From: Pseudobdellovibrionaceae bacterium
GTDB lineage: Bacteria > Bdellovibrionota > Bdellovibrionia > Bdellovibrionales > Bdellovibrionaceae
Direction of reading: 5' to 3'
Length of the DNA stretch: 64,000 bases
Assembly (NCBI GenBank): GCA_947449255.1
Contig: CANFQX010000003.1
Span: 124,001 to 188,000 of the forward strand
Each line of letters opens with the position of its first letter. The first letter of the stretch is position 1. Below, one piece after another: positions 40,551-45,101 of this stretch. The translations under genes were made by a program, and so were the position numbers. The notes under the pieces are model-generated. The model was not told the origin of the DNA and searched no databases. It saw only the letters and a program-made list of their open reading frames with translations.

Positions 40551-41324
40551 ATGAAAAATTACTTTATTCTATCCGTTCGGTCATTCGGTGCCTTGTTGCT
40601 TTTTGTTTGCACCGCTTTTGCTGCGGACCCTGCGATTAAACCTTTGGATTCTAAAAAAAGCATGAACTCGAATGATGCGAGTGCGGCAAATTTGATGATG
40701 GCACAGTTGTTAGTGTCAATTGACAGAGCCAGTATCGATTTTGAAACGGTTGGGACTTTCGACTCAAAAACTGGATACAATGCGGAGTTTATGAAGGGCA
40801 CAGGAATGGTTAAATTCAATTCTGATTGGGAGGTGCCATTGACTTCCCAAAAAAATAACGAGATAGGCAAACAGGACTCGAACGAAGTGGATAAGTTTAT
40901 TCCTATTTTGAAGATGGATGCAAAAAATTTAATTGCCCGAGTGACCATGGATCAACAAGGACTCGTGACGGCAATGGATCTCGATTTTTATAAAGGCTAT
41001 GACAAAATTCAAGATAAATGGATTGCTCGACCATTGAGTGTAAGTGCCGCCAATCAATTCAATAAAGAGTTGATGAATATCAAATTTAATTGGGTTCACG
41101 TTAAAATTGTTCGGTCCTCTGACCCAAGCCTGCCAGCAAGCATCGAAGGCCAGTGCTCTTCAACAAAAGAGGTTTTGGATATTATCACCGGCGAGATTCA
41201 ACCTATTGATGTGCAATGTCAGTTTGACGGAACTTATTCTGCGGACAACTACAGTGTGCATTTCAAATATATCAACAGCACTCCAAGTGCAGAACGAATC
41301 TTGCCTAAGGTAAGAAAGCCGTGA
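40551..41324 (+). CDS. Exported protein of unknown function, first of a run
   Basis: The 257-residue product has a clear signal peptide (about residues 1-25, ending TAFAAD) and no membrane helix in the mature part. I do not recognise a domain. The mature chain is rich in Asp, Asn and Lys with beta-prone segments (SIDFETVGTFDSK, FKYINSTPSAERIL), and two cysteines at GQCSSTKE and VQCQFDG could form a disulfide. It overlaps the next gene by four bases (GTGA), and a third exported-protein gene follows, so the three are one operon. The upstream gap is long enough for a promoter. Confidence 0.7.
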   Translation: MKNYFILSVRSFGALLLFVCTAFAADPAIKPLDSKKSMNSNDASAANLMMAQLLVSIDRASIDFETVGTFDSKTGYNAEFMKGTGMVKFNSDWEVPLTSQKNNEIGKQDSNEVDKFIPILKMDAKNLIARVTMDQQGLVTAMDLDFYKGYDKIQDKWIARPLSVSAANQFNKELMNIKFNWVHVKIVRSSDPSLPASIEGQCSSTKEVLDIITGEIQPIDVQCQFDGTYSADNYSVHFKYINSTPSAERILPKVRKP

Positions 41325-42196
41325 ACGCAACAAAGACCATTCTTAAGACTGCACTGACTTTAGCTTTGAGTCTGGCTTTTGAATGGCCCTTTGCAACCCA
41401 TGGGGTTGAGCTCAAACAGCCCGAGCAGGGTTGGTCAAAGCCCACTCTAGAATATTGGATTTCAAAAAACTTGGCTGTGGATGTCGATGAGGACCTTAAG
41501 GAATTGGGAATTGAAGCCTCGGCTTGCACCTACCACAGCCGGGCAGGTGGTAAAGACATTTCATTCAAAGGCCTTGGGCCCTGTCTGTATTTAAATTTTA
41601 AGGAGTCCATGCAAACAGATCAGCTGTCTGGAGTGACTTACTTTTGGTTGAAAGGCACAAGCCCGGAATCGAGGCCGCTGGAATTGTCTTGGCGTCCACC
41701 CCAAGGTGGAATGAAGGTGTTTTTTAAGCAAGTCTTTGAAATGAACTTTGAGAATGAACTCTATTGGCTGAGAAAGCATATGGGGAATAAAAAATCAGCT
41801 GAAAATCTGCATTATAAAGAATTCTTAGCTGGAAATTGGGAACTTATTTTGCCAGAAGACACTGAGGTTCGGACAGCACTGATTAGTCAAAATTCGGCTT
41901 GGCTTGGCACTTATTTGAAAAAAATCGAGGACCGTCATGGACTTGAATTGCACAAGTTGAGATTAAGTCTTTTGCCGACGGAAAGAGAAAATGGAGTGGT
42001 GGTTCATACAGGCCTTTTGCAGGCTGAATTGCAAAGCCTCAAGACAGAGCCAAACCAGAGTGCTGAGAATTTGGTTTTTGCGATCAAAACAAATTTAAAT
42101 ATTATCCTTTCGGAGAGAAGATCCTATCTGAAGATCCATAGTTTGGATAAATTAGAAAATTCAGAATTGCTGGAGGGTGAATCACATGCTCCTTAA
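41321..42196 (+). CDS. Exported protein of unknown function, second of a run
   Basis: The 291-residue product starts at GTG within the previous stop and has a signal-like N-terminus (residues 1-29). The mature part contains a two-cysteine pattern (ACTYHSRAGG and GPCLYLNF) and a helical middle (NELYWLRKHMGNKKSAENL). I do not recognise a domain. Its ends overlap both neighbours, so translation is coupled through the three genes. The protein is probably periplasmic or secreted. Confidence 0.66.
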   Translation: MNATKTILKTALTLALSLAFEWPFATHGVELKQPEQGWSKPTLEYWISKNLAVDVDEDLKELGIEASACTYHSRAGGKDISFKGLGPCLYLNFKESMQTDQLSGVTYFWLKGTSPESRPLELSWRPPQGGMKVFFKQVFEMNFENELYWLRKHMGNKKSAENLHYKEFLAGNWELILPEDTEVRTALISQNSAWLGTYLKKIEDRHGLELHKLRLSLLPTERENGVVVHTGLLQAELQSLKTEPNQSAENLVFAIKTNLNIILSERRSYLKIHSLDKLENSELLEGESHAP

Positions 42197-42950
42197 CGCC
42201 AGATATATTGTTTCGCTATTTTTATTTTTATGCTCTTTTAGCAATTCAGCCTTCGCTGATCGCGATGCTTATTGCAAACTTAAGACGAATGAAATTGAAT
42301 TGGTGGCAAATAAAATTTTAACACGCTCGCATGAAATTAAAAAAGACTTTCCAATGTCGTCCGTCATTCAGTCTAATTTCAATGGTCAGTTGTCCGATGA
42401 TGATAGAAAAAGTAAAATTGAGGCTACTCTAGAAGGTTTTATCCGTGTGGAAGAAAGTGGTCAATTTTCTATTCTGCCTCTTTCTATTCCGTTATTTGCA
42501 GTGAATTTAAATAAAGAAAGAGACATCGTTTATGTGTGTGCTCATCTAGATCCAGATCCAGCAAAATATTTTTTAGAGATTTATTTTCTGACCGGTTATA
42601 ATTTGGGTGATGTCTCAATGAGATCTTTTTTGGGCGATCTTATATTTGATTCCGTCAGTGTTTCGCCTGTGGTGATAAATCCCTTGAGTTTAGATCAGGC
42701 TGTCAATTTTTTTGGTGGCAGCGTTGGGGAGATGGACCTTTTTAAGGTTTTGATGACTCCGCTGCGTGTGCCTTTGGAAGTTGTGAGTCAGGCTCAGAGC
42801 CTGTTGATGTCATCTTTGGATTCCATTTTTCCAATCGGAATTGAGAGAGTGCTTTTGACCCAAGATGAAGTTGTGCTGTCTTCTGAGGTCGATATGAAAA
42901 ACTCTGGCAAATCTACTTTTGATTATCATATTTCCTTAAAAGCGAAATAA
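42186..42950 (+). CDS. Exported protein of unknown function, third of a run
   Basis: The chosen start is ATG 42186, with GGAGGG eight bases upstream; a GTG at 42177 overlaps that ribosome site and is less likely. The 254-residue product has a signal peptide ending FADRD. A conserved-looking end (LSSEVDMKNSGKSTFDYHISLKAK) suggests a beta-rich C-terminus. Two cysteines (AYC near the N-terminus and VYVCAH) could pair. No known domain is seen. It overlaps the preceding gene by 11 bases. Confidence 0.66.
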   Translation: MLLNARYIVSLFLFLCSFSNSAFADRDAYCKLKTNEIELVANKILTRSHEIKKDFPMSSVIQSNFNGQLSDDDRKSKIEATLEGFIRVEESGQFSILPLSIPLFAVNLNKERDIVYVCAHLDPDPAKYFLEIYFLTGYNLGDVSMRSFLGDLIFDSVSVSPVVINPLSLDQAVNFFGGSVGEMDLFKVLMTPLRVPLEVVSQAQSLLMSSLDSIFPIGIERVLLTQDEVVLSSEVDMKNSGKSTFDYHISLKAK

Positions 42951-43125
42951 TATGGATATTCTTTTTTGAGTAAAAGGCTTGTTCGCCCACGTCTTGCCAA
43001 TAAATTAGTCGGTGTCTTCATGATGTTCGTTTTACAATGAGACTGTGTCTTATTTTAAGCAGTTCAGTTTTTGATCTAGTATTGATTTCCTTAAAGAAAT
43101 TTAGATTTTTTTTGGATTTTCATGT

Positions 43126-43141
43126 TGGCATTTCAAATGCA
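43126..43141 (+). promoter_or_regulatory. Sigma-54 (-24/-12) promoter candidate
   Basis: TGGCATTTCAAATGCA has the conserved GG and GC exactly ten bases apart, with TGGCA and TGCA matching most of the -24/-12 consensus. It lies about 25 bases before the ATG of the repeat protein, leaving just enough leader for its GGAGAG ribosome site. An NtrC-family activator would be needed; two are encoded in the window. Confidence 0.6.
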
Positions 43142-43166
43142 CCTCTGAGTCTTATTGGAGAGAAAT

Positions 43167-43850
43167 ATGAGACTATTTGACAAAATTTTTGACACTTTTT
43201 ATGTAAGAACCCAATTCTCTAAAGTGAACTTATTGATGAGCGCGGTGCTGTTTGGAATTCTTTTGCTACAAATGCAAGCACAGGCTGAGTTGGGAAACTC
43301 TCCATCCAATGAACAGGTTCGCAGTGATGTCCGGCAGTTTCTGAATAAGGCTCACCGTGCTGAACTGCTTCATTATGATGAATGGGCTGAGTATTCAGAC
43401 GGAATGGATAAAATGGGGGTGTCTGTTCCAGTTTATCTTAAAAGCCTTTTTTCTGTAAGCCTCACAGTCAATCCCGTGACAAAGTCAGGATATCAACTTA
43501 AGTTGACGGGGATCGCCTCTCCGGTGAAGGGCAATGTCTTTTCCATCGACAATTCGGGTTCCATCGAAGGGATGACACAGTTTGAGAACGCCACAGAGCT
43601 CATTGCAGAAATTCAGAATCTTTTGCAATACGCCTGGACATCAGAGAGAACTTATTATGCTGAGTTTAGTAGCTATTCGACCGATTTCGGCCTAACTGGA
43701 TTATTGATTCCCAGCTATTTGGCAAGCTATGGGACGCTCTCAGCGCGTTTAACTGCAACTGGATTCGTTATTGAATTTTTAGGAAATCACTTTCCATTGG
43801 TGAATATAAAGTTTTCAATTGATGAGAAACACAATCTGGTAATGCCTTAG
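43167..43850 (+). CDS. Exported protein with two pilin-like repeats
   Basis: The start at 43167 follows GGAGAG; a TTG at 43155 would overlap it. The 227-residue product has a signal-type N-terminus (residues 1-40) and then two related units of about 75 residues, R1 (57-133) and R2 (151-225). Both share an A-x3-E-x2-x-Y-x-E-(W/F)-x2-YS pattern (R2: AWTSERTYYAEFSSYS), a VP/IP turn, and an ending FSID. The pattern resembles the region of deltaproteobacterial type IVa pilins after the helix, but the N-terminal prepilin motif is missing. It is preceded by a sigma-54 promoter candidate, as pilin genes often are. Function is unknown. Confidence 0.65.
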   Translation: MRLFDKIFDTFYVRTQFSKVNLLMSAVLFGILLLQMQAQAELGNSPSNEQVRSDVRQFLNKAHRAELLHYDEWAEYSDGMDKMGVSVPVYLKSLFSVSLTVNPVTKSGYQLKLTGIASPVKGNVFSIDNSGSIEGMTQFENATELIAEIQNLLQYAWTSERTYYAEFSSYSTDFGLTGLLIPSYLASYGTLSARLTATGFVIEFLGNHFPLVNIKFSIDEKHNLVMP

Positions 43851-43857
43851 TGAACTC

Positions 43858-44154
43858 TTATTTTTTAACTGAAAAGACCTCCAAGATCTTTTTAGTTCTC
43901 GGGTCCACCAGGATCTTCACGGGTTTCTTGCTTTTTTTGCTGCTTTCTAATTTCTTCATCTGATCAGATTTTTCCCCAGTGTCTTTTTCGAATTCATAAA
44001 TGCTAGGGTGTCTATGAAAGCTAATGAAGGCGTGATCTTTTTCAGACTCGATTTTGTAAACGACATCCACGAATTCAAAGGGCTTGTTGGCGGCGGCAAG
44101 CAGCGGGTTTTCCAGAGTTATGAGAATACTCAAGATGAGTAGAGCTTTAGACAT
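43858..44154 (-). CDS. Small exported protein of unknown function
   Basis: The start at 44154 has AAGGAA nine bases upstream, giving 98 residues. A frame from 44202 would overlap the upstream deamidase gene. A signal peptide covers residues 1-20 (LLILSILITLENPLLAAA). The mature part is basic (KKLESSKKSKKPVK) with a short strand-prone end. It follows the deamidase gene by 29 bases on the same strand, so it may be its partner or inhibitor. No family is recognised. Confidence 0.6.
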   Translation of the reverse strand: MSKALLILSILITLENPLLAAANKPFEFVDVVYKIESEKDHAFISFHRHPSIYEFEKDTGEKSDQMKKLESSKKSKKPVKILVDPRTKKILEVFSVKK

Positions 44155-44183
44155 TTTAAATATTTCCTTTTTTAAATCTATTT

Positions 44184-45101
44184 CTATTTTTTCTGCTTCC
44201 ACTCAACATGATCCTCATAGTCACTGCGTAGACGAGCGAGCTCTTGCTGAGCTAAGACCGTTTCTGCTTTGTGCCAGCGGCCATGGGCGGGGTCGTCATT
44301 CAATGAACTTAAAGTGTTATCACGTACAGGCTCAAACACGAAGCGATCTGTGACATAGATCTCAGCACGATTTTTTGCTTTAGTGTGCAAAAGCAATTTA
44401 TCAACCCAGACTTTGTTGGATACGGGTTCCGTAAAAAGAGAGGGATCTAAAACCCTCATTTCTATTCCATTTTTTCCATTGACCGCGACAACGGGTGCGA
44501 CGTGGTAGCTCCAATGAACATTCTTGCCGTTTAAGGCCTCTTTGGTGTCTACATTTAAATCAGCCTCGACAAACATTTTTCCCACTCGAAGGCCTTTTTT
44601 TTCTAATTCCTGGGCCATGATTTGAGCCCTTGCCCAGCAACCTTCTTCGGGGGATTTAAATGAATACTGGGGATCTTGACTCAGCTCCTTAAAAAGTTGT
44701 TGGATCTGATTCTCTTCTAAGACAGAGACAGGAATCTCTCCCACAGCGGTATTTTTAATTATCACGGTGGGGTAGGGAATTGGGGCAGTAAGGGCGCTCT
44801 GCGGTTTGCAGTCTTTTTTATTAAATCCATTTGTTACCTTATTGAGCGAGTTTAAAAACTCTTGATAATTGTAACTGGCGGGCTGTCCTTCGCGAACTTG
44901 TCCAGTCGGCGTTGCGCTCTTGTCGGGCAGGATAGACTCTTGGTATTGACCCGCGAATTTGCAGGCCTCATTCATAAGATCTTGCTTATAGGGGTTTAAA
45001 TTGCTGATCACTTCTTCGTCACATAAAATGGCGGGATCGGTGGCACTGCTTTGGCTGCCGTAGAGGCCGAGGCAAAATAAGATGAAAAGGAGCTTGCGCA
45101 T
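44184..45101 (-). CDS. Exported protein-glutaminase-type deamidase
   Basis: The 305-residue product has a signal peptide (residues 1-20) and then matches the protein-glutaminase fold known from Chryseobacterium, a secreted enzyme that deamidates protein glutamines. The catalytic triad can be placed: C155 in GCWARA, H200 in WSYHVAP and D219 in VLDPSLF, with the PV-x-W segment (PVSNKVW) after it as in that family. A stretch of about 130 residues before C155 may be a pro-region that keeps the enzyme inactive until cleaved. A small exported gene follows on the same strand. A role in modifying prey proteins is plausible but not shown. Confidence 0.78.
   Translation of the reverse strand: MRKLLFILFCLGLYGSQSSATDPAILCDEEVISNLNPYKQDLMNEACKFAGQYQESILPDKSATPTGQVREGQPASYNYQEFLNSLNKVTNGFNKKDCKPQSALTAPIPYPTVIIKNTAVGEIPVSVLEENQIQQLFKELSQDPQYSFKSPEEGCWARAQIMAQELEKKGLRVGKMFVEADLNVDTKEALNGKNVHWSYHVAPVVAVNGKNGIEMRVLDPSLFTEPVSNKVWVDKLLLHTKAKNRAEIYVTDRFVFEPVRDNTLSSLNDDPAHGRWHKAETVLAQQELARLRSDYEDHVEWKQKK

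Follow-up and report, generated by a model that had tools for sequence, protein, structure and literature searches.

The locus analysed here lies within a 64,000-nucleotide stretch of contig CANFQX010000003.1 from a Pseudobdellovibrionaceae bacterium, referred to below as the window. It raises two connected questions: which enzyme is encoded by an exported reading frame of 305 aa, and what is the role of the small exported protein encoded directly after it.

The enzyme and its family

The preliminary description of this DNA proposed a secreted deamidase of the protein-glutaminase (PG) type, with a triad formed by C155, H200 and D219. Enzymes of this type convert glutamines of proteins into glutamates. 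The features of the enzyme gene are as follows:

44184-45101, minus strand: gene of the predicted PG-type deamidase, 305 aa, ATG start
45042-45101, minus strand: predicted Sec signal peptide, residues 1-20, with the hydrophobic stretch LLFILFCLG; cleavage site judged by eye
44784-45041, minus strand: N-terminal region, residues 21-106; Cys27, Cys47 and Cys98 are conserved in clade C (defined below), and the region has low confidence in the model
44232-44783, minus strand: PG catalytic domain of papain/transglutaminase fold, residues 107-290, from Pfam and the predicted fold
44637-44639, minus strand: codon of the catalytic Cys155, from the triad alignment
44502-44504, minus strand: codon of the catalytic His200, from the triad alignment
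44445-44447, minus strand: codon of the catalytic Asp219, from the triad alignment

As judged from sequence and predicted fold, the protein is a new member of the known PG family with a predicted deamidase activity, and the original assignment to this type of enzyme is borne out by the Pfam, PDB and structural comparisons. The Pfam family PF18626 (Gln_deamidase_2) matches with an E-value of 4.7e-27 and 94.7 bits (cut-off 25), while the NCBIfam model PG_glutam_Chrys (NF040782) aligns only with residues 141-233, in the catalytic part, and its 54.8 bits stay below the equivalog cut-off of 250. The PDB entries matched by sequence are 8z3i, 2ksv, 2zk9, 3a54 and 3a56, all with E-values from 1e-11 to 4e-11. 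The three triad residues are found exactly where they had been placed. The PV-x-W segment reported along with them is also present, with a different spacing, since it reads PV-x4-W (P226-V227-SNKV-W232), which is identical to the spacing in the aligned Chryseobacterium sequence. In 127 distinct PF18626-type reading frames taken from the fetched loci, no substitution of a triad residue occurs where the position is occupied (Cys in 126, His in 125, Asp in 124), the one to three rows without a triad letter being alignment gaps, all in reading frames of 109-201 aa.

It was also considered that the enzyme could be a transglutaminase- or protease-like protein of the same fold and not a PG. The fold class is shared and transglutaminases do appear lower in the structure lists, but the distance between the two groups makes this reading very improbable. 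The enzyme model was built from 37 alignment rows and has a mean pLDDT of 70.4, being good from about residue 110 to 260 and poor over much of residues 1-106. In a Foldseek search with this model the top six matches are PG chains (6.6e-10 to 1.1e-8), followed by NTAQ1 (2.1e-3) and transglutaminase 3 (0.08). After structural realignment the PG entries reach Z scores of 16.1-18.4 (18.4 and 17.2 among them), against 8.9 for NTAQ1, 8.6 for SseI and at most 5.9 for transglutaminases, so that the match to a plain transglutaminase-like fold, named beforehand as the result that would speak against a PG, did not occur. Furthermore, K175, W197 and W232 are near-invariant across the PF18626-type reading frames.

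The N-terminus of the enzyme has a best 9-residue Kyte-Doolittle mean of 3.04. Promoter and terminator scans gave results at chance level, and no Rfam match was obtained. Four consecutive genes on the plus strand (window 40551-43850) encode exported proteins of 231-291 aa without a meaningful Pfam or NCBIfam family score.

The protein encoded after the enzyme

The small exported protein just downstream, which the preliminary description took for a possible chaperone or inhibitor, has a hydrophobic N-terminus and is referred to here as the partner. Its features are:

43858-44154, minus strand: partner gene, encoding a 98-aa exported protein of predicted OB fold, homologue of the PG pro-region according to profiles, model and pairing
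44155-44183, minus strand: gap of 29 bp between the enzyme and partner genes
44005-44007, minus strand: codon of partner Pro50, aligned with Ala47 of pro-PG in the profile alignment

In a tree of 85 rows, the window enzyme belongs to a clade that comprises 10 rows and nine genomes (clade C, support 99/98), whose members are 40-48% identical to it. When the window reading frames of at least 80 aa were compared by tblastn with the nine clade C loci, only the enzyme, the downstream reading frame (7/9 loci) and a weak response-regulator match were recovered. In the eighth locus (L088) the small reading frame is present on reading of the locus; the ninth (L097) ends inside the enzyme gene, and the small reading frame of that genome is on another contig (L098, one of the seven). 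The partner is thus found directly after the enzyme in 9/9 clade C genomes, that of the window included, with a 4-base overlap in six, one base of separation in two and the 29-bp gap in the window. In the other clade C genomes that were read, the pair is flanked on one side by what look like SpoVR, YciH and response-regulator genes, joined in some genomes by an HtpX-like gene, and on the other by a likely DEAD-box helicase gene. The genome of the window has SpoVR and YciH on contig C2, where the pair is missing, and carries the pair beside radA on contig C3. The two genes have moved, or were kept, together, an adjacency conserved as in effector-immunity pairs and retained here at a different site.

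Three partner profiles, overlapping in membership, were compared with 177,635 PDB sequences, and all pointed to the same protein. With eight clade C partners in the profile, the best match is the pro-PG 3a56, over chain residues 32-90 (E 0.0012; next unrelated entry 0.046). That of 28 partners gives the pro-region of Chryseobacterium pro-PG at 9.6e-5 (next unrelated 0.14), and the 25 partners outside clade C still give it at 0.0059 (next unrelated 0.37). Among NCBIfam families the PG model attracts the most partners, but weakly (3/8, best 0.019; 3/28, best 0.015); the 98-aa partner aligns with its positions 49-109, which fall in the pro-region. A template-free model of this protein has an overall pLDDT of 87.3, with block means of 89-98 from residue 21 on, and its top three Foldseek matches are pro-PG chains (1.8e-5 to 3.5e-5), followed by 8z3i, matched over residues 35-111 (0.011), and by unrelated entries from 0.021. 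The superposition on pro-PG covers 75 residues (chain residues 19-94) at 1.6-1.9 Å with a Z score of 13.1. The fold alone is weak evidence because OB folds are common, the next best being the unrelated B subunit of a toxin at Z 11.0, and the 75 residues are only about 23-27% identical to those of the pro-region. Taken together, sequence, fold and gene position are strong evidence that the partner is a homologue of the pro-region. The chaperone or inhibitor of the preliminary description is therefore well supported as a candidate and can be specified as a probable free-standing version of the PG pro-region.

The same description had seen a pro-peptide in the long region before the catalytic domain, and a related reading would make residues 21-106, with their three conserved cysteines, the pro-peptide of the enzyme and the small protein an unrelated OB-fold protein. 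The conservation of this region in clade C agrees with such a role, as does its length, which is of the order of the 108-118 aa given for known PG pro-regions in the available text of PMC9396377. On the other side, residues 22-128 have no PDB match up to E=10 and no detectable relation to the PG pro-domain (hhalign probability of 0.2 against the partner family), and the known pro-region is found by the partner profile and not by this part of the enzyme. A pro-peptide of known kind in the N-terminal region is not supported by the profile comparison and the PDB search, and the wider reading appears highly improbable. The pro-domain is not found in one chain with the catalytic domain, at its N-terminal side; a separate gene is present instead. 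Since the homology to the pro-region resides in the partner and none is detected before the enzyme domain, the pro-domain is, on profiles and models, encoded in trans.

The arrangement can be compared with that of the characterised PGs. The Chryseobacterium proteolyticum enzyme and its pro-form (2zk9, 2ksv, 3a54, 3a56) share the Cys-His-Asp triad and the PV-x4-W segment with the window enzyme, and the fold of their pro-domain recurs in the partner model. They differ in that the pro-domain is fused N-terminally, whereas here a separate exported protein comes from the next gene, and in that the N-terminal region of the window enzyme is a different one. Similarly, the Flavobacterium enzyme FBPG (8z3i) and the PG of Bacteroides helcogenes belong to the same family and have a fused pro-sequence. 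In the literature searched, by title and opening of the abstract and with few subscription papers included, no description of a PG with a separately encoded pro-domain was found. What is new is the separately encoded PG pro-domain; the idea of a stand-alone propeptide-like inhibitor is known for proteases. Such protease inhibitors have other folds than the PG pro-domain, and the streptopain inhibitor Spi, itself stand-alone and pro-domain-like, is encoded beside its enzyme, unlike the animal inhibitors. According to the available parts of the sources, the propeptide-like inhibitors CTLA-2alpha, crammer and BCPI (PMC4089206) and a subtilisin propeptide-like protein of malaria parasites (PMC6993865) likewise come from a stand-alone gene resembling the pro-domain of the inhibited enzyme, and they act on proteases, not deamidases. 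The effector-immunity pairs of polymorphic and secreted toxins, as outlined in the accessible portion of PMC3482391, are similar in having a small protein directly after the enzyme and in the same predicted compartment. They are unlike the present pair in that the candidate here is homologous to the own pro-domain of the enzyme family and the pair is predicted to be Sec-exported, the immunity role being putative.

Predicted shared compartment and proposed mode of action

If the partner acts on the enzyme, both should reach the same compartment, and the predicted hydrophobic N-termini of the two proteins place them together. Signal-peptide status, predicted from the highest mean hydrophobicity of any nine-residue segment near the N-terminus, agrees between enzyme and partner in 41 of 45 pairs (both high in 28, both low in 13), with a Fisher probability of 1e-7 that is too small because related pairs are not independent; with one partner per enzyme the agreement is 37/41. 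As we read the four discordant pairs, the enzyme is cut by a contig end in L055, the signal is weaker in L112, and the start is uncertain in L017 and L109.

A second line of evidence comes from the position equivalent to Ala47 of pro-PG, a residue reported to lie within the active-site cleft. The pro-PG mutant A47Q is likewise reported to mimic bound substrate, and an entry entitled 'A47Q1 mutant of pro-protein-glutaminase' is among the PDB matches of the partner model. In 28 aligned partners this column holds Ala (17), Ser (7) or Pro (4), and never Gln or Asn, which fits a putative plug that cannot be deamidated. For this reason the most likely reading, held with fair though not high confidence, is that the partner serves as a trans inhibitor, which would keep the enzyme silent in the periplasm of the producer. 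Sec would export the enzyme and the free-standing copy of the pro-domain to the same compartment, where the partner would bind over the Cys155-His200-Asp219 cleft and the small residue of one of its strands (Pro50 in this partner, mostly Ala or Ser in its relatives) would occupy the place of the substrate glutamine. The producer would be protected in this way until release. When the enzyme leaves the cell, or when the partner is degraded, the enzyme would become active and may deamidate glutamines in proteins outside the cell, probably those of the prey envelope or cytosol. A pro-domain may inhibit only in part, given that the pro-sequence of the B. helcogenes PG does not abolish activity, according to the available text of PMC12791059.

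The main rival is a role in folding, in which the partner would be a steric chaperone acting in trans, on which the enzyme folds before leaving; the two roles can coexist. Pro-domains often guide folding, and the order of enzyme and then partner, with overlapping ends, fits coupled translation. However, no partner was detected among the genes downstream of 32 inspected PG genes from clades A, B and D of the same genus, which indicates that a PG can do without one, and the restriction of the Ala47-equivalent column to small residues suggests, indirectly, a contact with the cleft. A folding role as the explanation of the pair is thus considered unlikely, though less remote than the other alternatives to a partner of this kind. 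The window genome itself has two PF18626 genes, the second of which (L001 1258-2109, minus strand; G000:C2:240157-240486) belongs to clade A and is without a detectable partner gene.

If trans inhibition is true, it would explain how a cell exports a deamidase without harm to the proteins of its own envelope. It would also offer an inhibitor open to direct test for an enzyme family of industrial use, whose members the cited papers describe as single-chain pro-enzymes, and it would suggest a route for the origin of an immunity protein, from or into a pro-domain.

Distribution, unpaired relatives and delivery modules

A contig scan with the window protein as a single sequence gave no relatives, and a scan with the clade alignment gave 40 loci from Bdellovibrio, Bacteriovorax, Halobacteriovorax, Micavibrio, Herpetosiphon, Saprospiraceae, Eremiobacterota and others. 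PF18626 is present in 46 of 59 relatives and, across the phylum, in 179 of 290 genomes, one of which has as many as 12 matches; it occurs in 21/94 genomes from the order of one Micavibrio genome, in 6/198 from the phylum of one Saprospiraceae genome, and in none of 14 control genomes. A partner was found in 30 of the 40 loci, with similar pairs in Bacteriovorax, Halobacteriovorax, Micavibrio and Saprospiraceae. The ten loci without one (nine if the contig-cut L101 is set aside) are L101, three from Herpetosiphon, five from Eremiobacterota or similar and one from Micavibrio. Four of the six PF18626 loci from the phylum of the Saprospiraceae genome have a partner.

The iterated partner profile, run over 11,475 reading frames of all loci, gave 61 matches at E<0.01, which are not 61 different genes because some loci overlap. 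As many as 59 lie on the same strand and within 700 bp of a PG, a linkage that is overstated because all loci had been fetched around PGs and the profile was iterated. Of the remaining two, one is a tandem second copy (L137) and the other is fused to the C-terminus of the PG (L065 4715-5734), where an apparent remnant of a signal peptide lies between the two domains. The genome-wide scan of the 59 relatives, unlike the fetched loci, is an unbiased test of linkage: it gave 41 partner-like matches in 24 genomes, of which 11 adjoin a PF18626 gene and 30 do not, so that some members of the family may have another job.

Many of these 30 orphan matches belong to two conserved loci. The first, in Bdellovibrio genomes, encodes an exported protein of about 100-105 aa (family A8; L151 5127-5438, L153 4975-5292, L154 5031-5348, L156 5053-5370, L157 5083-5397, L159 5009-5320, L168 5088-5390), at a conserved site beside an exported protein of 137-141 aa, with no PG nearby; two genes beside it look like aroB and aroA. 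Profile comparison links this family to the partners with a probability of 98.5, the only tie between them, since in the PDB search the family has no pro-PG match of its own. The second orphan family consists of exported partner-like proteins of about 81-86 aa at another conserved site (L152 4937-5182, L166 5034-5282, L167 5010-5270, L169 5067-5318).

With regard to the role of the enzyme, its use as a predator effector is plausible, with predation, the substrates and export beyond the periplasm as putative elements. If this is true, the PGs would represent a new class of candidate predation enzymes. The pair could also be real and the enzyme serve digestion or nitrogen gain in the prey or act in the own envelope, an alternative that concerns the role only. 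The many PGs of the phylum and their numbers per genome would suit such a function, as would the broad action of the Chryseobacterium enzyme on food proteins, according to the available text of PMC9396377 and PMC6132073. Against this general picture stand PGs joined to delivery modules, which point to delivered effectors where they occur and are not evidence for the window gene, and a digestive, nutritional or own-envelope role, in place of an effector aimed at particular prey proteins, is regarded as less likely than not.

Two Herpetosiphon PGs (L119 7515-8612, L125 7536-8624) carry an N-terminal WXG100 domain, a target of type VII secretion (two proteins tested), and in a Saprospiraceae genome (L109 7650-8576) a PG is fused behind a DUF4280 domain, presumably PAAR-like, with a partner gene behind the PG. 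Moreover, a survey of the fold mentions PF18626 genes that have type IVb secretion genes in their neighbourhood (PMC10318531). These fusions and neighbours support the use of PGs as probable delivered effectors in some lineages, a statement about those lineages and not about that of the window.

A broader proposal can be put forward tentatively, as one somewhat more likely to fail than to hold. A PG and a separate inhibitor homologous to its pro-domain may form a widespread, undescribed enzyme-immunity pair. Predators would export both through Sec and hold the enzyme inactive in the periplasm until it meets prey proteins; in other lineages the enzyme would be coupled to WXG100 or DUF4280 modules, in one case with the partner gene behind; and the orphan pro-domain proteins of Bdellovibrio would be spare inhibitors for partner-less or incoming enzymes. 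The protein behind the WXG100-PG of Herpetosiphon was not picked up by the partner profile; it is a different, conserved, lipoprotein-like protein of 186-187 aa.
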